Made by a program: the position numbers and the translations under genes. From the NCBI RefSeq assembly GCF_030053595.1, contig NZ_JASGBQ010000005.1, positions 62,001 through 126,000 of the forward strand: a stretch of DNA of 64,000 nt, given 5' to 3'. This DNA comes from Fusibacillus kribbianus. GTDB lineage: Bacteria; Bacillota; Clostridia; Lachnospirales; Lachnospiraceae. Positions 35,381 through 49,819 of this stretch are shown here, in pieces (positions within the stretch are counted from its first letter, which is position 1; every line of letters starts with the position of its first letter). Under the pieces are notes generated by a model. That model searched no databases, was not told the origin of the DNA, and saw only the letters and a list, made by a program, of their open reading frames with translations.

Positions 35381-36265
35381 ATGCTGGACTACCGGATGAA
35401 TACTTTTCTGACTGTATGCGATACCATGAATTACCGAAAAGCCGCGGAGCTTCTGCATATTACCCAGCCTGCCGTGACCCAGCACATTCAATTTCTGGAA
35501 AAAGAGTATCAGTGTCATCTGTTTCTCTATGAAAACCGACGTCTGGTCAAGACAGAAGCCGCCTCCGTTCTGGAACAATATGCCAGGGCCATGCGCTACA
35601 ACGAAAGCTCCATTCGTCAGGAACTGCGAAAGAGCTCTGTCAGAGAGCTCAAGGTGGGAGCCACCAAGACCATCGGAGACTATGTGATCCTGGATCAGAT
35701 CCATCACTATCTGGCAGATCCGGACCATGCCCTGACCCTGATCGTAGATAACACCGAGCACCTATTGTGGCTTCTGGAGGAAAACCAGCTTGATTTTGCT
35801 GTTGTCGAAGGGTTCTTTGACAAAAGAGCCTTTGAAAGCAGATGCATCCGAAAAGAACCTTTTGTAGGGATCTGCCGGAAGGGTCATCCCTTCGCCGGAC
35901 GGAATATTACGGTGGAAGAGCTTCTCAATGAGACCATCATCCACCGGGAAGAGGGCTCCGGCACCCGGGCCATTCTGGAACAGAAGCTCCGGGGATACAA
36001 TGAATCTCTGAACCAGTTTCGGCGTCACATCTGTATTTCCAGCTTCAAACTGATCCTGGAACTGGTCAAAGCCGGCCTGGGCGTATCCTTCGTTTACAAG
36101 GTTCTGGCCGAAAGCGCTCCGGAGCTTGATACCTTCAGCATCCAGGGCGAAGCTATCGTCCGGGAATTCAATCTGATCTGGCTTAAAAATGCTCACGTTC
36201 AGGATAAGATCGACAGCTTCTTCACGGCAGGAACGATCCCGTCCCTTCCTGATGATCTGCTATGA
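35381..36265 (+). CDS. LysR-family regulator, divergent to the sulfur reductase fusion
   Basis: 294 residues: helix-turn-helix YRKAAELLHITQPAVTQHIQFLE, then an effector domain (LKVGATKTIGDYVILDQI ... GLGVSFVYKVLAE). It resembles CysB/CysL-type regulators of sulfur metabolism in overall shape, which fits the neighbouring reductase, though sensing specificity cannot be read. The ATG at 35381 has GAGG five bases upstream; a GTG two codons earlier overlaps that site. Confidence 0.9.
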   Translation: MLDYRMNTFLTVCDTMNYRKAAELLHITQPAVTQHIQFLEKEYQCHLFLYENRRLVKTEAASVLEQYARAMRYNESSIRQELRKSSVRELKVGATKTIGDYVILDQIHHYLADPDHALTLIVDNTEHLLWLLEENQLDFAVVEGFFDKRAFESRCIRKEPFVGICRKGHPFAGRNITVEELLNETIIHREEGSGTRAILEQKLRGYNESLNQFRRHICISSFKLILELVKAGLGVSFVYKVLAESAPELDTFSIQGEAIVREFNLIWLKNAHVQDKIDSFFTAGTIPSLPDDLL

Positions 36266-36305
36266 CACTATCGACACTGTCCATGAAATAAAAAGGAGGA
36301 AACAG

Positions 36306-36800
36306 ATGAAAAAACGTTATCTCATTGCCTTTTTATCATGTCTGGCCTTGGCAGTCATTATCGGCATACAGTTTATTCAAAAGGATGACTTACAACGCCT
36401 TTCAAAACCGGACAAAATAGAACTTGATATAACAATAACGAACCATCATTATGAATTCCTGCCCGGGGACAAGAACTATGAGGAGCTCTACAATCTGATT
36501 AAAAAAGACTGGGACAATACCAGAAAACTTGATAACGGAGAACTGGTATGTCTGCAATTAGACTATCTGGATGAGGAAAGAGACAATACAGGAACCGCAA
36601 TTCATCTTTATTATGAAAAAGCCAAAAACCCGGGAAGAAACAGCATAATAGAACACGGACACTATTATAGTTTCTTTCCATATACCCTTGAATTTGCGGC
36701 TATCACAGAAAACAAAGATTATTATAAGGCAGCTATTTTGCCGCACTTTATACCCAGCGGTGAACTACAAGGTTATATAACCAGTCTGAAATGGGATTAA
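36306..36800 (+). CDS. Membrane-anchored extracytoplasmic protein, unknown
   Basis: 164 residues from an ATG with AAGGAGG seven bases upstream. MKKRYLIAFLSCLALAVIIG is a signal anchor without a lipobox or clear cleavage site; the rest is polar, mixed alpha/beta, rich in Tyr, Asp and Asn, with no motif I recognise. It starts 40 bases after the LysR gene on the same strand. Codon use and AT content shift here toward those of the next 7 kb, suggesting the beginning of an acquired region. Confidence 0.6.
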   Translation: MKKRYLIAFLSCLALAVIIGIQFIQKDDLQRLSKPDKIELDITITNHHYEFLPGDKNYEELYNLIKKDWDNTRKLDNGELVCLQLDYLDEERDNTGTAIHLYYEKAKNPGRNSIIEHGHYYSFFPYTLEFAAITENKDYYKAAILPHFIPSGELQGYITSLKWD

Positions 36801-36812
36801 GAGGAACATTAT

Positions 36813-36844
36813 CGGCAGCCGTGCAAAACCACGCATAGCTGCCG
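36813..36844. terminator. Hairpin between convergent genes
   Basis: CGGCAGC/GCTGCCG with an inner CGTG/CACG stem. It lies between convergent stops but lacks a T-run after the stem on either strand, so intrinsic termination is not proven. Confidence 0.4.
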
Positions 36845-36868
36845 AAAAAAACTATTGGCTTCCTCCTT

Positions 36869-37426
36869 CTATCTGTCCGGTTCTGCGATATGAAAACGGT
36901 CGTATGTCCCATAACAGTCCAGACATACCTTCTTACCGCCCATAAGACGGATCCAGTTGGCACCGGTACTTTCACCGCAGCATTCGCACACATAAGAGTC
37001 GAACAGGCGGGCCTGCCCCGGAAGCCGAATTGTGGTTTCCTTAATATCAAACATCTCTTCCGGCGTGCAGCTCTGATAGTATTGGAAGGATTCGTCACGA
37101 GTCATCTCACGCGGTTTAGGTTTGAGCACCAGCCGAAGTGACTTGCCGTTTTTACGGTTGTAGAACGAGAAGGCCTGTTTGCCGCGCATATGGAAAAGCA
37201 GATTCCCCTTACCAATGCTGCATCCTAAAATCACTTGAATGGCATCCACGCTGCAGGTGTCATTTTCAGATATACAAACAACCTGCTCGTCTTTTGAAAA
37301 AGTCAGATCCAGCAATTCGATTGCGTAAAGTGCCGCCCGATAGCCAATGGTCAGACCACCGCAGGCATGGCCGTGAAAGGCCACTGCTTTTTCCCATAAT
37401 CCTTCTTTTCTGATGGTGTAATTCAT
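36869..37426 (-). CDS. FmdE-family protein with C-terminal zinc ribbon
   Basis: 185 residues. The FmdE domain (formylmethanofuran dehydrogenase subunit E family) shows FHGHACGGLTIGYRAALYA, ENDTCSVDAIQVILGCSIGKGN, and then a C-terminal CxxC pair, YVCECCGESTGAN and KVCLDCYG. In non-methanogens such proteins are found near molybdenum, tungsten or selenium metabolism genes; their reaction is not settled. GGAGAA precedes the ATG. Nothing nearby pins down a partner. Confidence 0.82.
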   Translation of the reverse strand: MNYTIRKEGLWEKAVAFHGHACGGLTIGYRAALYAIELLDLTFSKDEQVVCISENDTCSVDAIQVILGCSIGKGNLLFHMRGKQAFSFYNRKNGKSLRLVLKPKPREMTRDESFQYYQSCTPEEMFDIKETTIRLPGQARLFDSYVCECCGESTGANWIRLMGGKKVCLDCYGTYDRFHIAEPDR

Positions 37427-37481
37427 CGCCTTCTCCTTATTCTCCCGTTTTTACATGAACCACTTCCGCTGTGATGTTTCT

Positions 37482-37658
37482 TCAGTTAACGTACCACACA
37501 AAGTATATCAATATGAGTTCAGTATATATAGACAGATATACCACCGGAATGACTATTGATTCTTTATTTATCAGCTGCTCGATCAATCTGGCTATCATCG
37601 GCCAGACCAGTACCCCACCGATAATGATAAGTAATACAAAAATCCCAACCATCCTCAT
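37482..37658 (-). CDS. Small two-helix membrane protein, unknown
   Basis: 58 residues: MRMVGIFVLLIIIGG opens a first hydrophobic helix, a short loop IEQLINKES follows, then a second helix ending YFVWYVN. Start at 37658, or 37652 which is better spaced from the GAGGGGG ribosome site. It begins 25 bases after the preceding gene on the same strand, so it is the last member of the blaI-blaR1-like accessory operon. Too small for family assignment. Confidence 0.6.
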   Translation of the reverse strand: MRMVGIFVLLIIIGGVLVWPMIARLIEQLINKESIVIPVVYLSIYTELILIYFVWYVN

Positions 37659-37683
37659 ACCCCCTCGTCTTTAACATGTCTTA

Positions 37684-38073
37684 TTATTTTAATGAATTTA
37701 ACAATTTAACAAACTCCTGAATATCATTTTCACTGACACTGAACTCTCTGCTGATGATTCCATGATATACTATAATATTTCCAACTATAGAAATCTCTTG
37801 TCCATTGGAACACGACAGCCAGACCTTCCAGCCTTTTCCCGAATGAAAACCGGCGAAATCCTTTTCAATCCCATTTAAGGCTTCACATATAAGCGAGATA
37901 TCTTCACCAGATACATCCCATTTAGTCATCCCGTTCATCTGAAACTGAATGTTCATCTCAGTGATTTTATCCTGCTTTAATTCAGGTGCCGAAGCCAGTT
38001 TGAGTGATGTGAGAACCGCAATGACTGCTGCAACAATGGCTACAATCAAGATGACCCATTTCTTTCCGGACAT
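37684..38073 (-). CDS. Membrane-anchored extracytoplasmic protein, unknown
   Basis: 129 residues from MSGKKWVILIVAIVAAVIAV, a signal anchor, with GGAGGAGAGG upstream. The outer part is a small polar domain (MTKWDVSGEDISLICEALNG, then a C-terminal helix EFVKLLNSLK). It resembles the size and layout of the immunity- or sensor-type small lipoproteins but has no recognised motif. It follows the 232-residue gene by about 60 bases. Confidence 0.55.
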   Translation of the reverse strand: MSGKKWVILIVAIVAAVIAVLTSLKLASAPELKQDKITEMNIQFQMNGMTKWDVSGEDISLICEALNGIEKDFAGFHSGKGWKVWLSCSNGQEISIVGNIIVYHGIISREFSVSENDIQEFVKLLNSLK

Positions 38074-38130
38074 GACATCCTCTCCTCCCCCCGTGTTAAA
38101 TAATCTTCCGCTGCAAAACAATGATTCAGC

Positions 38131-38829
38131 CTATATCTTTTCCCCTTTCCCGGATACAGTCCCCATAAATGGTCCTACAATTTCATCGCCGGTTTCCGGC
38201 CCGTCATACATCGGAGACAAATTTAAAGAAAAAACAGCCTGAAAATCCACTGCATTTCCATCTTTCCTGAGTGCAAAGGTTGTTGCGTCACATACTAAAC
38301 AGTCAATATTCCTCTCTCCCAGGAAGCAGCCCACATTTAAACCAGGATTTTCGTAACTGACTATTTCTCCTGTGCTGCCTTCAAACTGACAGGTTCCTGT
38401 TACACTGTAAGCAATTTCAAAGAGCTCTGTTCCATCTGATAATTTAGGCGTCCTTGCCAGGGCATAAAAATCATCTTTGTATGTCCGGATTATTATATCA
38501 TTTTCTTTTTTCTCATCCTGATGCCATGTTTTCCATTGAATATACAGCAGTTCGTCTGATATAGCATCAGAAATGGTCTGATATTCCTGTTTCTCATATG
38601 CAGTTTTATACTGATCATAGAATTGTTCCGTTATATCATGCCCGTCTTTGTCAACCGCACGATACGTTCCTGATGGTGATCCAAAAAAGCTCGTACACAC
38701 TTCAAGATACGTCCTCGATAACCCTATGGTATCTTTATTGCTCCCTTTTGAGCCTAATACAAGCACAACAGACGAAATAACTATGATCATTGCACAAACC
38801 ACTGATAACCCGATTATTATTTTCTTCAT
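38131..38829 (-). CDS. Membrane-anchored extracytoplasmic protein, unknown
   Basis: 232 residues. Residues 1-27 are a signal anchor; the exported part is rich in aromatic and acidic residues with two Cys pairs (EVCTSFF, TGTCQFEG, VGCFLGERNIDCLVC). GAGGAGGGGG precedes the ATG. No family recognised. It lies downstream of the BlaI/BlaR1-type pair on the same strand and is the first structural gene after them, so it is a candidate target of that switch. Confidence 0.55.
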   Translation of the reverse strand: MKKIIIGLSVVCAMIIVISSVVLVLGSKGSNKDTIGLSRTYLEVCTSFFGSPSGTYRAVDKDGHDITEQFYDQYKTAYEKQEYQTISDAISDELLYIQWKTWHQDEKKENDIIIRTYKDDFYALARTPKLSDGTELFEIAYSVTGTCQFEGSTGEIVSYENPGLNVGCFLGERNIDCLVCDATTFALRKDGNAVDFQAVFSLNLSPMYDGPETGDEIVGPFMGTVSGKGEKI

Positions 38830-38841
38830 CCTTCCCCCTCC

Positions 38842-38913
38842 TCATTCATATAACAAGCCATAAGCGACACTTCCGGTTATGGGATTCCCTTGCGTGTCTC
38901 CGGATTGTTCCAT
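38842..38913 (-). CDS. Possible 23-residue peptide
   Basis: ATG at 38913 with GAGG seven bases upstream; reads MEQSGDTQGNPITGSVAYG and four more residues. Its stop overlaps the ribosome site of the 232-residue gene, so it could act as a translational leader. Small enough to be chance. Confidence 0.25.
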   Translation of the reverse strand: MEQSGDTQGNPITGSVAYGLLYE

Positions 38914-38971
38914 ATACCGTCCTCAGCTTACAGCAAGAAAAAAGTTCCAGTGCCCCCGTACTTTTGCAGTA

Positions 38972-40333
38972 TTATTGAACTATATAGGTCCCTTCGACTT
39001 TTGCCTCAGAAGTACTCTTATTTTCTATAAAGATCCTATAACCTTCCGTCTGATCCAATACAAATTTATGAGAAATATACCCGCTATCCTGAACATATCT
39101 TCTTGTTCCATCCGGTTCAACAATCCCGGCACTTACTGTTGTGTCTGACGGCTTAATAAACACTGTAATTGCGATACTTTTTCCAGAACCTACACGAAAT
39201 GTTCCTGACCTATACATCGTTTTACCTGCTAAAGTCCAATTAAAAACAGTCGCCGCTCCCGTCCCACTTTCCGAGTCCATATCTACTACAGCAATCCCAT
39301 CTTCAACACCAGAATCTGTATATTCTACATAGGAAACTTCAATGTTCTCCTCCTCAATATCAACTACCGTATTATCATAAAGCGTTTCATATTGCTCTAC
39401 AAAATTTGCGGAAGCTGCATATACCATCCCTGAACTTGCAAATAACATAACCATACAAATTCCCATTGCAACTTTCAAAGATTTTCTCTTGTACAAATGA
39501 TTTTTCCTCATATGCTCCATCCGTTCCGCCAGTTCACACTTATTTTCAACCAAACGTGATATAAAATAGGAATCGAGTTTATTTATATCTAATACAATTT
39601 TTGAAATGATAATAAAATATTTCTTTATTCCACCTACGATCTGACAGGATTTATCATCACACGAATATTCACTCCATCTTCGCAGCAAACCATGAAGCCA
39701 CCATACTACCGGATTAAAAAACTGGGTAATCAGTATGATCGTCACCGCTCCCTTAAGCCACGTATCCCTCTGCTTATAATGAATCAATTCATGAATAAAC
39801 ATAACCCGCAGTTCTTCATCGGAATACTGTTCTACCGGCAAAACAACTTTCGGTCGAAGTATTCCTCCAAACTCAGAAATATGTACATAATAACTCTGGC
39901 TCAGTTCGATCTTTCCTTCCTTGATCCCGAGCTCCCTGCAAATTTCATTAAAAAGTGTTTGTTTGTAAAGATCGCATGGAAAACACGTTTGATACCTTCT
40001 ATTGAGTTTTTTTAGTTCATAGACATACTTTCCCACCATTACACAGACACCCAAAAACCAAATGAAACAGAAAACCCGGCTAACCACCAGTATGAACGGT
40101 GTCAGCAACAGAATACTGCCTTCCTTTGATAATATATAACTGTCATAATATATAATCAAATATGCCAATGGAAACAAAAAGAGAAAAATAATCAGATATA
40201 ATATCCGATAAAGAATATTGATATATCCTATCCTCTCCAAAAAGCGTCCAATCCAATACCAGGTTCCCAACAATATACTTCCGGTAATTGTAGTTAGTAA
40301 CAACATTACCATGAAGTTAATCGTCCAGCTCAT
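38972..40333 (-). CDS. M56-family BlaR1/MecR1-like membrane metalloprotease
   Basis: 453 residues. Four N-terminal membrane helices and a cytoplasmic zinc protease domain with HELIHYKQRD (HEXXH), YSCDDKSC after it, then a last membrane helix near residue 305. The outer C-terminal domain (about 130 residues) is not a penicillin-binding domain: it is beta-rich, with no SxxK. So the ligand sensed is probably not a beta-lactam. By family analogy, sensing outside triggers cleavage of the BlaI-type repressor. Overlaps the repressor gene by 17 bases. Confidence 0.88.
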   Translation of the reverse strand: MSWTINFMVMLLLTTITGSILLGTWYWIGRFLERIGYINILYRILYLIIFLFLFPLAYLIIYYDSYILSKEGSILLLTPFILVVSRVFCFIWFLGVCVMVGKYVYELKKLNRRYQTCFPCDLYKQTLFNEICRELGIKEGKIELSQSYYVHISEFGGILRPKVVLPVEQYSDEELRVMFIHELIHYKQRDTWLKGAVTIILITQFFNPVVWWLHGLLRRWSEYSCDDKSCQIVGGIKKYFIIISKIVLDINKLDSYFISRLVENKCELAERMEHMRKNHLYKRKSLKVAMGICMVMLFASSGMVYAASANFVEQYETLYDNTVVDIEEENIEVSYVEYTDSGVEDGIAVVDMDSESGTGAATVFNWTLAGKTMYRSGTFRVGSGKSIAITVFIKPSDTTVSAGIVEPDGTRRYVQDSGYISHKFVLDQTEGYRIFIENKSTSEAKVEGTYIVQ

Positions 40334-40715
40334 CCAAAATACTCCTTATTTTTTCAATATCTGCTTTTGACAGTTTTTGTGTACGTGTCAGTGTCATCAT
40401 CAGCTCCGGGGCACTCCCTCCAAACCACAAGTCAGCTTCTTCATGAATTAATCTGTTTTTATATTCCTCTTCTGTCTTGAGTGCACGCACATAAGATAAA
40501 TAACCTTTTCGGTACGATTCCGCAAATCCTTTTTCGGCTAATCTGGTTAAAAATGTCGCTATTGTAGTCCGTTTATAATCCTTATTGAATCGTACTCGCA
40601 ATTGTTCCATTAATTCCGGAACAGATAAATCTTCCTCTGCATCCCAGACCACTTTCATAATTAACGCTTCGCAGCCGCTCAGCATTTTTTCTTCAGATTT
40701 CTTTTTATCACTCAT
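40317..40715 (-). CDS. BlaI/MecI/CopY-family repressor
   Basis: 132 residues. Winged helix with LSGCEALIMKVVWD, VPELMEQLR, KRTTIATFLTRLAEKGF, then a dimerisation tail. AGGAGAG precedes the ATG. It is first in its operon, and its promoter carries two TACA/TGTA-type operators, so it should repress itself and the genes after it until the BlaR1-like protease inactivates it. Confidence 0.9.
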   Translation of the reverse strand: MSDKKKSEEKMLSGCEALIMKVVWDAEEDLSVPELMEQLRVRFNKDYKRTTIATFLTRLAEKGFAESYRKGYLSYVRALKTEEEYKNRLIHEEADLWFGGSAPELMMTLTRTQKLSKADIEKIRSILDELDD

Positions 40716-40728
40716 AGCTCTCCTTTTA

Positions 40729-40777
40729 CTACATTTGTACTTGTTCTCATTTTACTACGTTTGTAGAATTTTATCAA
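40729..40777 (-). promoter_or_regulatory. blaI-type promoter with two operators
   Basis: Minus-strand TTGATA (40777-40772), 17 bases, TAAAAT (40754-40749). Operator CTACGTTTGTAG (40755-40766) fills the spacer; a second, TACATTTGTA (40730-40739), lies just downstream of the -10. Both match the TACA-n-TGTA pattern of BlaI/MecI sites. Confidence 0.85.
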
Positions 40778-40924
40778 CTGTTTTTGGGCAAAAAATCAGT
40801 TTTCAGATTTTTTAGATGTTACGTGCAAATTTAAATACCCATTTATCAAACAACACCGCAGCCCCGGATCACGCACATCGTGAGAATCCGAAAAGCTTCA
40901 CCAGTTGACCTTCCAAAAGAAAAA

Positions 40925-40990
40925 GGGCAGTAGGTATTACCCTCTTCCGCGACGAAGAACTGCCATTGCCGGCTTGCTTACCTACTACCC
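40925..40990. other. Inverted repeat with two mutually exclusive pairings
   Basis: GGGCAGTAGGTA (40925-40936) can pair with TACCTACTACCC (40979-40990) or, through GGCAGT, with ACTGCC (40959-40964); the latter encloses a TCTTC/GAAGA hairpin (40943-40958). The rest of the 300-base gap between blaI and the DUF5714 gene shows nothing else beyond the blaI promoter. Confidence 0.45.
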
Positions 40991-41012
40991 GATATGTACT
41001 TCTAAAATGGTA

Positions 41013-41567
41013 CTATCCATAATATGGACACCGTTCTTTTATACATTGCTCATTCCGATTTGAATATTCGCATCTCATATGCTCGTATTCCAAAGTCACT
41101 CCATAATGGTTATTTACATACTGGATGCAATTTTTTAATGCGATCACTGCATCTCTTTTACAGCAGCGCGGACCATTGATTCTACCAAGTTCTCCAATTG
41201 CATTTGACGTAAACTGCATATGATTTCCCCACGTTCCGTCTGCTGATAATGGACCGGTTCCGTCAATAATGGACAAGGCAGCTCCTAAAGATGTAATTGC
41301 ACCGCAAACGCCCCATAAACCGCACATCGCTCCGGGCATACGGAGACCTTCCGCCATGAGTTTTTCAAGAGCTTCTTCGATATCTATTTCTCCTCCGGCA
41401 TTCTTATATGCTACAAGCAGACTTGCACCATCCAGTATGTGATGTTCCGGCCCATGAATACTGATATATTCTTTCTGTGCAATATTCTTAAAAATGCGAA
41501 CCGGATTTGTCCCTGTTTCCTGTATTATATCCTTTACTATTTGTTCAGCTTTTTCTTTTATCGTCAT
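41013..41567 (-). CDS. DUF5714-family Cys-rich protein
   Basis: 184 residues from MTIKEKAEQIVKDI, with AGGAGA nine bases upstream. It matches my memory of the DUF5714 family of anaerobes, function unknown. Conserved Cys clusters: GAMCGLWGVCGA, GPRCCKRDA, and a C-terminal RCEYSNRNEQCIKERCPYYG, which together could bind a metal or an iron-sulfur cluster; HGPEHHILDG adds His ligands. Single gene with its own probable promoter. Confidence 0.75.
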   Translation of the reverse strand: MTIKEKAEQIVKDIIQETGTNPVRIFKNIAQKEYISIHGPEHHILDGASLLVAYKNAGGEIDIEEALEKLMAEGLRMPGAMCGLWGVCGAITSLGAALSIIDGTGPLSADGTWGNHMQFTSNAIGELGRINGPRCCKRDAVIALKNCIQYVNNHYGVTLEYEHMRCEYSNRNEQCIKERCPYYG

Positions 41568-41618
41568 CTTTTTTCTCCTAAATATCTTGTGCAAAGCATC
41601 TCAAATATATCTTCCTGC

Positions 41619-41647
41619 ATAATTTTATATACATAGATATATGTCAA
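41619..41647 (-). promoter_or_regulatory. Probable promoter of the DUF5714 gene
   Basis: Minus-strand TTGACA (41647-41642), 17 bases, AATTAT (41624-41619). A TAAAAT three bases closer is an alternative -10 with a short spacer. Confidence 0.45.
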
Positions 41648-41772
41648 TATGAAATCGCCCTTTGCATATAACCTCTCACCGACGGCTTTCCAAGATAACA
41701 GCCGTATGTCTCTATTGCATCTGAATCGAAAAAGCCAGCCATCTGATCCGGTTTTAAAGCCAGTATTATTAT

Positions 41773-42262
41773 TTAATAGAAATCAACAGTATATTTTTCA
41801 TTGCTCATTTGCCACATATAAAACCCTGAATAAACAGTATCCAACTCGGGATGTGATTCTAAATATGAGAATCCCCATTCCTCCGCTTCTTCTAAGGTAT
41901 CAAAGGCCATACCGCTGTTCCCATATTTTATTGCTTCTGTAGTCGTGGCCTGTGTGGATGCCGCAGTGGTCGGAGCTGCCGTCGGTGTCTGTGCCGGAGC
42001 TGCTGTCGCAGCATTGGTTCCTTCCGGTTTCGTACCGGCCCCTTCACTATTTGCAACTGTTGTCTCTGCTGCAACCGTTGCTTTAGTTCCACTCAGATGA
42101 CCTGTTCCGGATTCTGTTTCCGGTCTCTTTCCTCCGCTTTCCTGCTCTGCAATGGCATTCTCTCCGGAGACGGAAGCGGCTTCTGCATCCGGATTCTCAT
42201 GGACTTCTGCAGCTACAGACTCTTCCATGTCTCTTCTCACAGTTTCACTGTCTTCTGTCGAT
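41773..42262 (-). pseudogene. 3' fragment of an ICE-type lipoprotein gene
   Basis: About 160 codons that match the C-terminal two-thirds of the lipoprotein encoded at 48936-49652: SVSGENAIAEQESGGKRPETE, the Thr/Pro/Ala-rich linker TAAPAQTPTAAPTTAA, the end module YGNSGMAFDTLEEAEEW, and the terminal YTVDFY. DNA similarity starts near 42262 (ATATCGAC-GAAGAC) inside the truncated TtcA frame. Signal peptide and lipobox are gone, so no functional lipoprotein can be made. It suggests an earlier or second ICE copy left this piece behind. Confidence 0.75.
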
Positions 42263-42755
42263 ATATCAGTTTTGCCAGGAGCATGGAATCCTTTCCCCCG
42301 GAAATACAGACTGCAATCCGGTCACCCTCCTGTATCAGCCGGTACTCGTTCAATGCTTTCGTAAAAGGGCGCCAAACACTCTTTCGGAATTTTTTAATAA
42401 TGCTTCTCTCAATCTCAATTGTCTTTTCTCTGCACTTTTCTTCCGATTCCTTCCTCATATATCTGGAAAGTGACAGTTTCAGATATGCCCGATATCCGCC
42501 GCTTACGTTAACAGCATCATATCCTTCCTCTTCCAGCTTTTCCGTATAAGCCTGGCTGCGTTCGCCGGTATGGCACAGGAGATAAACAGACTTTTCTTTC
42601 GAAAGCTCCCTTTTTCTTTCATCGAACTGTTCCATAGGAATATTGAAAGCGCCCGGGAAAGTGCCTCTCTTATACTGATCTTCCGGTCTGATGTCAACTA
42701 TACAGCATGTTGACGGATCTACCGTTTCCAGTTCTTCAATTGTAATAGCTTTCAT
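42237..42755 (-). pseudogene. Rhodanese-TtcA-type tRNA thiolation protein, 3'-truncated
   Basis: 172 codons. Residues 1-95 are a rhodanese domain with the persulfide Cys in LLCHTGERSQAYTEKL. It continues into the start of a TtcA/TilS-type PP-loop ATPase, RIAVCISGGKDSMLLAKL, and then changes abruptly to unrelated residues IYRQKTVKL and stops. The whole rest of the ATPase (normally over 150 residues, including CxxC motifs) is missing. The junction coincides with the start of similarity to the lipoprotein fragment. Overlaps the TcdA fragment by four bases (ATGA), so it once formed an operon with it. Confidence 0.8.
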
Positions 42756-43473: not shown

Positions 43474-44682
43474 TTAAACATTCAAAAAATCTTTATATTG
43501 CTCCACCGCCTTTCTTATTGTATCATCTGTGACATGGGTGTATGTGACTGTTGTGCTGTAATTCTCATGCCCCATCAGATCCTGAACCAATTTAGGGGGC
43601 ATATTTTTTTCAAAGCACCTGGTAGCAAAGGTATGCCGCAGCGCATGTGGATGAACATTTTCAAAAGTTATCGGATCATCCAGAGCTCGTTCGTAAAGAA
43701 GATACTGACGGATATCATCTGAAATGTGCCTCAATTCCTTCTCCGCTATATGTCTTCCTACTGGGGATCCCAGTCTAGTGACAAAAACGAGATTTCCAAA
43801 TTCATCATTTTCTCTCCACAGATAGCCCTTTTCTTTTTTTTGTTTTTCTGCCTTTTTTCTCTGGCTTTTTAGAATCGCCTCTGTTTCTCCAAAAAACGGG
43901 ATTCTTCTCTTCGAGTTTTCTGTTTTGGGTGACATAATCTTATACTCAGATTTTCCCGTTTCATGGTTTCTCATATAACTGAGGCTTCTCTGTACATGAA
44001 TGATTTTGGAATTAAAATCGATATCTTCCCACCGTAAAGCACCGATCTCGCCGATTCGCATTCCGGTCACAAGCATAAATTGGTACATTTCTTTATACCA
44101 GTTTTGTGTCCTTTCCAGATAGTCCAAAAACAATTTCTGTTCTTTCTGAGTCAATACCCTTCTTTCTGCAGTTTTGCCTTTCATAACGGTTACTCCCATA
44201 GTCGGATTATTGGTGATCATACCATTACCCACGGCTGCATCAAAACACTGTCTGGTTATTCCAAGACCGGTACGAATATACCTTGATGATCTCCCTTGAT
44301 CAAACAGATCAGCGATCGCAGCCTGAATATCCATCTGAATCACATCAGACAAGTATTTCATTCCTATGTACTTGCCAAACGTATTGATAAACGTCCGCTT
44401 ATAGGATCCATCCTTTCCATGCTTCAGATTCGGAGCCTTATAGGTATTGAACCACTCCTCATACCATTCATTCACGGTGACAATACTTCCCCGCCTGACT
44501 GGGAGCAGCTGCCTGACTTTCACTTCATTCACCAGCACCGGCAGCTTCTTTTTTAACTCCTTCAGATTAAATCCATAGATGGCTATGGTTTCTCCGTCTA
44601 CCATGGCACGCGCCATATAACGCCCATCACGCCGTTGTGAAAAACCTTTCCCAAGTTCTTTTCCCTTAAGATCCTTTCCCAT
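43474..44682 (-). CDS. int: ICE integrase, Tn916-Int-like tyrosine recombinase
   Basis: 402 residues. N-terminal arm-binding domain (GFSQRRDGRYMARAMVDGE), SAM-like core-binding domain, and catalytic domain with Arg in VTGMRIGEIGALRWEDID, HALRHTFATR (HxxR), LMGHENYSTTVTYTHVT containing the last His and the Tyr nucleophile. It excises and integrates the element together with the Xis gene upstream. Its gene is the outermost ICE gene, in the usual place next to the attachment site. Confidence 0.95.
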   Translation of the reverse strand: MGKDLKGKELGKGFSQRRDGRYMARAMVDGETIAIYGFNLKELKKKLPVLVNEVKVRQLLPVRRGSIVTVNEWYEEWFNTYKAPNLKHGKDGSYKRTFINTFGKYIGMKYLSDVIQMDIQAAIADLFDQGRSSRYIRTGLGITRQCFDAAVGNGMITNNPTMGVTVMKGKTAERRVLTQKEQKLFLDYLERTQNWYKEMYQFMLVTGMRIGEIGALRWEDIDFNSKIIHVQRSLSYMRNHETGKSEYKIMSPKTENSKRRIPFFGETEAILKSQRKKAEKQKKEKGYLWRENDEFGNLVFVTRLGSPVGRHIAEKELRHISDDIRQYLLYERALDDPITFENVHPHALRHTFATRCFEKNMPPKLVQDLMGHENYSTTVTYTHVTDDTIRKAVEQYKDFLNV

Positions 44683-44804: not shown

Positions 44805-45047
44805 TCAAATGTCCAGGCCGTATTTTGCCGCTTTTTTCAGATAATCATCCAAGAGTTCTTTATGAACCATGACCTTCCGGCCGATCCGTACAACAAACCT
44901 ATAATTTGGATTCCGTGTCAATTCCCGGCCCTTCGTTCTACCAATCTTAAGATAAGCCAGAAATTCCTCAAAAGTCATAAGCGGCGATTCATATTTTTGA
45001 TCCCGGGAAGGATCAGTTTCCTTCCCGGGAACAGTTTCATAACTCAT
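44805..45047 (-). CDS. xis: Excisionase, Tn916-Xis-like
   Basis: 80 residues, a small MerR-like winged helix: LMTFEEFLAYLKIGRTKGRELTR then the wing RFVVRIGRKVMVHKELLDDYLKK. It directs Int toward excision. It overlaps the next upstream gene by 11 bases and is separated from int by 122 bases. The order xis-int at the element end is as in Tn916-type elements. Confidence 0.88.
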   Translation of the reverse strand: MSYETVPGKETDPSRDQKYESPLMTFEEFLAYLKIGRTKGRELTRNPNYRFVVRIGRKVMVHKELLDDYLKKAAKYGLDI

Positions 45048-48935: not shown

Positions 48936-49652
48936 CTAATAGAAATCGACCGTCCATTGACCATTTTCCATGGTCCATGCCCTGTATCCATTTATTGAAA
49001 AATCTCCTTCATAGGCTTTTTCAATAACATAGTTGTCAGCCCATGCATCCGCTTCAGCTAGGGTATCAAAAGCCATCCCGCTATTCCCATAGGTCAATTT
49101 GGGTGGCTCTGTCGGGGCCGCTGTCGTAGGCGCTTGAGTCGGGGCCACTGTTGTAGGGGCCTGAGTGGGTGCTGCCGTGGTCGGAGCTGCCGTCGGGGCC
49201 TGTGTCGGAGCTGCTGTCGTAGCTTTGGTTCCTTCTGGTTTCGCACCGGCTCCTTCGTTCTTTGCAGCTGTTGTCTTTGCTGCAGCCGTTGTTTTGCTTC
49301 CGCTCTGCGGACCTGTGCCGGCTTCTGTTTCCGGTTTCTTTTCTCCGCTTTCCTCTTCCGCAACGGCGTCCTCTCCGGAGACAGAAGCGACTTCTGTCTC
49401 CCGGTTCTTAAGGGCTTCTGCAACCGCAGACTCTGCCATGCTTCTTCTCACAGACTCAATGTCTTCAGTCGATATTCTATCTTCTCCGGTTTCCATCATG
49501 GATTCCGGTTCTGTCTTCCCTTCCAGGGTTGTCTCTGCTTCTGCAGCCGCAGAAACAGATTCCTTTATATTTCCACTTTTATTTCCACAGCCGCTTAATA
49601 TACTCATGGCTGTTAATAAGATACCCATTGCACATGCAATATTCTTTCTCAT
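48936..49652 (-). CDS. Lipoprotein with Pro/Thr/Ala-rich linker
   Basis: 238 residues from MRKNIACAMGILLTAMSILS; lipobox LSGC puts the lipidated Cys at residue 22. A charged stalk is followed by a low-complexity linker with repeated APTTAAPTQ-like units (about residues 145-200) and a 45-residue end module (YGNSGMAFDTLAEADAW ... WTVDFY). The end module occurs in the truncated copy at 41773-42262 too. GGGAGAA precedes the ATG. It lies directly upstream of the adhesin gene, 31 bases from it, so the two may act together at the surface. Confidence 0.75.
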   Translation of the reverse strand: MRKNIACAMGILLTAMSILSGCGNKSGNIKESVSAAAEAETTLEGKTEPESMMETGEDRISTEDIESVRRSMAESAVAEALKNRETEVASVSGEDAVAEEESGEKKPETEAGTGPQSGSKTTAAAKTTAAKNEGAGAKPEGTKATTAAPTQAPTAAPTTAAPTQAPTTVAPTQAPTTAAPTEPPKLTYGNSGMAFDTLAEADAWADNYVIEKAYEGDFSINGYRAWTMENGQWTVDFY

Positions 49653-49683
49653 ATCGTTCTCCCTTTCTTTCTGTATATTCGAG

Positions 49684-49698
49684 GGTCCCCCGGGGACC
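49684..49698. repeat. ICE palindrome copy 1
   Basis: GGTCCCC-C-GGGGACC, perfect seven-base arms, just upstream of the lipoprotein gene. Confidence 0.7.
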
Positions 49699-49819
49699 TT
49701 TCTGTTATAGGCTTCAAGTGGTGCACGGATGAGAATTGCATATGCGCTTCTTTCCTTCCATGCTTTCACTCTTTATCCAGAGTTATATAATCCCATTATC
49801 CGTCCTCCTTTCCTACATT

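Follow-up and report, generated by a model that had tools for sequence, protein, structure and literature searches.

Introduction

BlaR1 is the penicillin detector of staphylococci. In the BlaI-BlaR1 and MecI-MecR1 systems of Staphylococcus aureus, the genes for the repressor and for the M56-type receptor lie side by side, operators with TACA/TGTA-like cores sit at the promoter, and the controlled gene encodes a beta-lactamase or PBP2a. Here we describe a locus of related architecture on a 64,000-nucleotide stretch of the genome of the gut bacterium Fusibacillus kribbianus (Lachnospiraceae; contig NZ_JASGBQ010000005.1, positions 62,001 to 126,000). The whole stretch is referred to as the window, and all coordinates are window positions; the genes, protein motifs, promoter and operators of the locus lie on the minus strand.

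The locus shares with the staphylococcal systems the adjacent repressor and M56 receptor genes, the operator cores at the promoter, the distance of 41 residues between the HEXXH and EXXXD motifs of BlaR1, and a signal-peptidase-like site that follows the last membrane helix. In contrast to BlaR1 and MecR1, a domain of ~105 residues resembling PliG (periplasmic g-type lysozyme inhibitor) and PPC domains replaces the penicillin-binding sensor, the repressor aligns with T|L rather than N|F at the cleavage point, and the locus lacks a controlled beta-lactamase or PBP2a. It is thus of the BlaR1 type in its protease and its repressor and departs from that type in its sensor and in the resistance gene under control.

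The same outer domain is carried by M56 proteins of Enterocloster bolteae plasmid pCbo51 (profile E 5e-8) and Lachnospira eligens ATCC 27750 (profile E 5e-27), which are annotated as M56 family metallopeptidases and nothing more. On pCbo51, blaI and the M56 gene are followed by hypothetical proteins with signal-like N-termini; at both loci the neighbors are unrelated to the 232-, 129- and 58-aa proteins discussed below. A literature search returned nothing pertinent on BlaI/M56 systems of such kind in Lachnospiraceae; the mediterrocin paper (PMC12345188) matched BlaI solely by the name of an author.

Results and Discussion

The Protease-Repressor Core

The first gene of the locus encodes a BlaI/MecI-type repressor of 132 aa (40317..40715), which matches the Pfam family Penicillinase_R over residues 12-129 with 73.9 bits, against a cut-off of 22.6. 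It overlaps by 17 nt the gene for a BlaR1-like M56 metalloprotease receptor of 453 aa (38972..40333), in which HELIH and EYSCD represent the zinc motifs and which scores 65.9 bits with Pfam Peptidase_M56 (cut-off 31). The NCBIfam blaR1 model reaches 63.4 bits, its cut-off being 400, and covers the M56 part only. The 41-residue distance between HEXXH and EXXXD is kept in 20 of 20 members, and the same spacing separates H201 and E242 of S. aureus BlaR1 (PMC9834060).

The receptor displays a signal-peptidase-I-like site, VYA|AS (residues 304-308, 39410..39424), where its last membrane helix ends on the outer side. In an alignment of 35 members, alanine occupies position -1 in 26 and position +1 in 28. 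Because the sensor of S. aureus BlaR1 is likewise shed by signal peptidase (PMC9834060), the site resembles a known feature; it is not specific to the subfamily, similar sites being present in a few other M56 proteins.

The alignment of the repressor with BlaI (1sd4) and MecI of S. aureus extends through the cleavage region, where the S. aureus cleavage point N101|F102 falls on T108|L109. The N|F point, which belongs to the staphylococcal members and not to the family at large, is absent from the window BlaI. In most of the subfamily the P1' residue is leucine or isoleucine, with A|L or A|I as common combinations. From this analogy we infer that BlaI would be cleaved near T108|L109.

Among the scanned proteins of the cassette and its flanks, neither a beta-lactamase (Pfam, NCBIfam) nor a low-affinity penicillin-binding protein was found. 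A BlaI/BlaR1-type switch without beta-lactamase had been proposed in a first-pass annotation made from the letters of the window, and the family matches to both proteins bear this out. A defence role was considered and rejected, since PADLOC returned a weak match only, to the DNA-binding part of the repressor.

An Outer Domain Unlike Penicillin Sensors

The outer domain (residues about 346-453, 38975..39298) is common to the 35 aligned sequences, which come mostly from this genus and from other Lachnospiraceae. No Pfam family matched it, the Pfam and NCBIfam matches of the receptor being confined to the M56 part, and neither database gave a match to the penicillin-sensor domain with its acylated SXXK serine. 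In a phylum-wide sample, the domain was detected in 8 of 398 genomes, with weaker matches outside this genome.

AlphaFold2 models the domain as a beta-sandwich with good confidence (mean predicted local distance difference test score 84.6, core mostly > 93), a fold that differs from that of the penicillin sensor. The top Foldseek match is PliG (4dzg; E 4e-5), with a Z-score of 11.3 over 102 residues and a root-mean-square deviation of 2.4. GOLD and PPC/collagen-binding domains tie or nearly tie with PliG, the latter having the same beta-sandwich at Z 9-10. Identity to PliG in the fold alignments is 7-9%; in the sequence profile search PliG also appears, weakly and without significance (E 0.14-0.46), and the Pfam PPC model is reached by 1 of the 35 members (E 0.0044). 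A shared fold with PliG shows no function. PPC domains are the tails of secreted proteases, whereas here the domain forms the outer part of a membrane protease-receptor. Judged from sequence and model, the outer domain is not a penicillin sensor and is predicted to adopt a different fold, a beta-sandwich of the PliG/PPC/GOLD type, in agreement with the initial impression that it is unlike penicillin sensors.

A Promoter with Paired Operators

The blaI operon is preceded by a sigma-70-type promoter, TTGATA-N17-TAAAAT (40749..40777), which agrees with the consensus at 10 of 12 positions. One operator, TACAAACGTAG (40755..40765), occupies the spacer, and the second, TACAAATGTAG (40729..40739), lies just past the -10 box, which stands between the two sites at a distance of 26 bp from one another. 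These are the only two matches to TACAAAYGTAG in the 2.9-Mb genome, compared with 6 for the reversed pattern. The arrangement is kept at the homologous promoter of another species of the genus (G008:C58; BlaI 72% identical), which displays both sites with the same 26-bp spacing, and in G002:C5 a perfect CTACATATGTAG palindrome is present at about the position of the second operator. Both sites had been pointed out in the first-pass annotation; their uniqueness in the genome and conserved position add to that description. The operators are putative BlaI sites that exceed what chance would yield.

The motif is absent from the promoters of the other blaI-blaR1 (blaIR) pairs of the same genome, which is why these circuits may be insulated from one another. 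Across the genome, no other gene carries the exact pattern; looser sites may exist. As no further copy exists, the response is expected to be local, and by its predicted sites the locus is a self-contained, autoregulated circuit.

The Genes Behind the Receptor

Following blaI and the blaR1-like gene, the minus strand carries genes for proteins of 232 aa (38131..38829), 129 aa (37684..38073) and 58 aa (37482..37658), and then an FmdE gene. The three proteins, encoded on the same strand with short gaps, each have an N-terminal signal or anchor: the larger two are signal-anchored, and the smallest is a two-helix membrane protein. Pfam and NCBIfam offer no family for any of them, and the initial description of this group is thereby upheld.

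Their conservation is uneven. A search of 195 genomes yielded no relative of the 232-aa protein. Three further species of the genus encode relatives of the 129-aa protein, in no case next to blaIR. For the 58-aa protein, G002:C2 encodes a relative whose gene immediately follows an intact blaI and a blaR1 with an internal deletion, and a wider search gave no convincing relative beyond it. Of the three, this is the only protein with a relative behind a blaI-blaR1 pair. In the G002:C2 locus (L121 5100-6600), the middle of blaR1 has been lost and its N- and C-terminal pieces are left.

A scar separates blaR1 from the 232-aa gene. The relic of an insertion-sequence end (38883..38956, no strand assigned) agrees at 82% over 74 nt and at 50 of 57 nt in its core with copies found elsewhere at the ends of contigs C7 and C21. 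It abuts a 30-nt patch of a paralogous blaR1 (38853..38882, minus strand), which encodes ITGSVAYGL of the first membrane helix and is identical at 29 of 30 nt to the blaR1 of contigs C3 and C48. A 23-residue open reading frame (ORF), MEQSGDTQGNPITGSVAYGLLYE (38845-38913), had been put forward as a possible peptide; because it overlaps both relics and is mostly scar, it is probably not a gene. RNA structure was also considered for this gap and discarded, as folding is no better than in shuffled sequences (z -0.03).

The minus strand displays no terminator-like site in the stretch separating blaR1 from the 58-aa gene, and no separate promoter or operator for the downstream genes stands out. We infer an older arrangement in which the 58-aa gene followed blaR1, the 232- and 129-aa genes having been added later, and we read the position behind blaR1 as an effector slot that has been reshuffled.

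Sister Pairs in This and Related Genomes

The genome harbors six such blaI-blaR1 pairs. Exported proteins or lipoproteins are encoded behind five of them, accompanied in two cases by ABC transporters. Outside the window, we compared 27 related pairs, taking as the next gene the first one on the same strand within 400 nt and applying a crude export rule. The next gene appears to encode an exported protein or lipoprotein in 16 of the 27, compared with 27% among the ORFs of these loci; since the pairs are related to one another, this figure is support rather than a strict test. The link at system level from blaIR to exported proteins, lipoproteins and ABC transporters is real.

Individual sister loci illustrate the range of arrangements. 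In L030 (G000:C3), the contig with a blaIR pair also has parA/parB-like genes, so that the pair may be plasmid-borne; behind it are encoded an exported protein of 235 aa and a membrane protein of 129 aa. L067 (G008:C58) contains two tandem pairs: an 840-aa lipoprotein is encoded behind the first, and a small exported protein with additional lipoproteins behind the second.

For the small exported proteins of the sister loci, a reading as bacteriocins of the lactococcin-972 type found no support, there being neither a profile match nor a convincing fold match. Two members of their 115-140-aa family were scanned without a Pfam match, and 2LGN was not among the listed fold matches. The best fold match for these proteins is the MspA rim domain, with Z about 9.

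A Proposed Regulated-Proteolysis Switch and Its Alternatives

We regard it as reasonably probable that the locus is a BlaI/M56 regulated-proteolysis switch with a PliG/PPC-like sensor and read-through into envelope proteins. At rest, as the promoter anatomy suggests, BlaI would sit on its two operators and repress its own promoter. By analogy with BlaR1 and BlaI of S. aureus, binding of an extracellular ligand to the beta-sandwich would lead the cytoplasmic zinc protease to cleave BlaI. The promoter would then open, and blaI, blaR1 and the genes behind them would be expressed by read-through, with the 232-, 129- and 58-residue envelope proteins as effectors if read-through reaches them. Read-through is made likelier by the lack of any other operator copy and of a terminator-like site between blaR1 and the 58-aa gene.

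The nature of the ligand is the least certain step. As the sister operons carry lipoproteins and ABC transporters, an envelope-acting agent such as an antimicrobial peptide, a bacteriocin or a peptidoglycan hydrolase is the most likely candidate. The switch probably senses a non-penicillin attack or change at the cell surface, and envelope-stress or peptide sensing is plausible. A more specific version, in which the BlaR1-type receptor detects a lysozyme-like peptidoglycan hydrolase through its PliG-like domain and releases envelope proteins, as one of six insulated circuits, appears unlikely.

Several points weigh against the read-through model. Conserved partnership with blaIR is lacking for two of the three downstream proteins, and mobile-element debris separates blaR1 from the downstream genes, so that the present neighbors may be newcomers. 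A promoter-like match, no better than chance would give, precedes the 58-aa gene (37712-37683), and the lack of a terminator-like site argues only weakly for read-through. As a control on linkage, the comparison is crude and draws on mutually related pairs, some of which have no exported gene behind them, and the envelope-acting ligand is a conjecture drawn from the content of the sister operons. The initial claim that the switch controls exported proteins hence stands in part: sister pairs tend to precede exported proteins, while linkage of the 232- and 129-aa proteins is not conserved. Separate promoters and unconserved linkage had been named as signs against such control; no separate promoter stands out, and linkage is unconserved for two of the three proteins.

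These points give some room to an isolated switch, with an intact autoregulated blaI-blaR1 pair whose original effector operon was lost and whose downstream genes came by rearrangement, which we consider possible but clearly the less probable explanation. It would account for the insertion-sequence end and the blaR1 fragment ahead of the 232-aa gene, for a 232-aa protein without relatives and 129-aa relatives residing elsewhere, and for the lipoprotein and ABC operons of the sister pairs that are missing here. However, the three genes share strand and short gaps without a terminator-like site, a relative of the 58-aa protein stands behind blaIR in G002, and operators present only at this promoter would mean that a switch was kept with otherwise no target.

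It is quite doubtful that the outer domain recognizes a co-secreted protein of its own operon, as a surface quorum or self-recognition switch would. Such a function would fit the small exported family of 115-140 aa, which is almost confined to this genus and in most cases immediately follows blaR1, as well as the free exported copies of the outer domain that lie directly behind blaR1 in L052 and near blaR1 in L085. Yet the window locus has no member of this family, and in G009 two members lack a neighboring blaR1. An ordinary metal-responsive (CopY-like) or beta-lactam-responsive switch is very improbable: the repressor does match NCBIfam CopY_TcrY weakly (40.2 bits, cut-off 121.95), but scores are far under the cut-offs, the penicillin-sensor domain is missing and no beta-lactamase was found among the cassette and flanking proteins scanned, and CopY repressors are not known to need an M56 partner.

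Genomic Setting

The GC content falls from ~0.51 to ~0.39 over the blaIR cassette (window 36000-42000), as would fit horizontal acquisition. Next to the cassette lies a conjugative element (window 43474-64000), the cassette being situated outside the integrase end of this element. The element encodes a tyrosine integrase (43474-44682) and an excisionase-like protein (44805-45047), together with a single-stranded DNA-binding protein (SSB), a SpaA-fold surface protein, ArdC, a C39-like peptidase, a TraG/VirB4-like ATPase and a type IV secretion system (T4SS) coupling protein.

A repeat of ~330 nt with 83% identity (41937-42264 and 49148-49475) makes part of a 155-aa gene product (41773-42240) resemble part of a 277-aa ORF (48936-49769) in the mobile element. 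At 42237-42755, a rhodanese domain is fused to the beginning of a PP-loop (TtcA-like) protein that ends early; this gene was possibly broken by insertion of the element.

Conclusions

The proposed switch lends itself to direct tests through its operators, its outer domain and the conserved cleavage region. M56/BlaI pairs encountered in resistance scans need not mean beta-lactam resistance. In Lachnospiraceae, the protease-repressor core of the penicillin detector occurs with a different outer domain and in several parallel copies per genome. If these circuits answer envelope attack, a major group of gut bacteria would possess a sensing system that has gone unrecognized.

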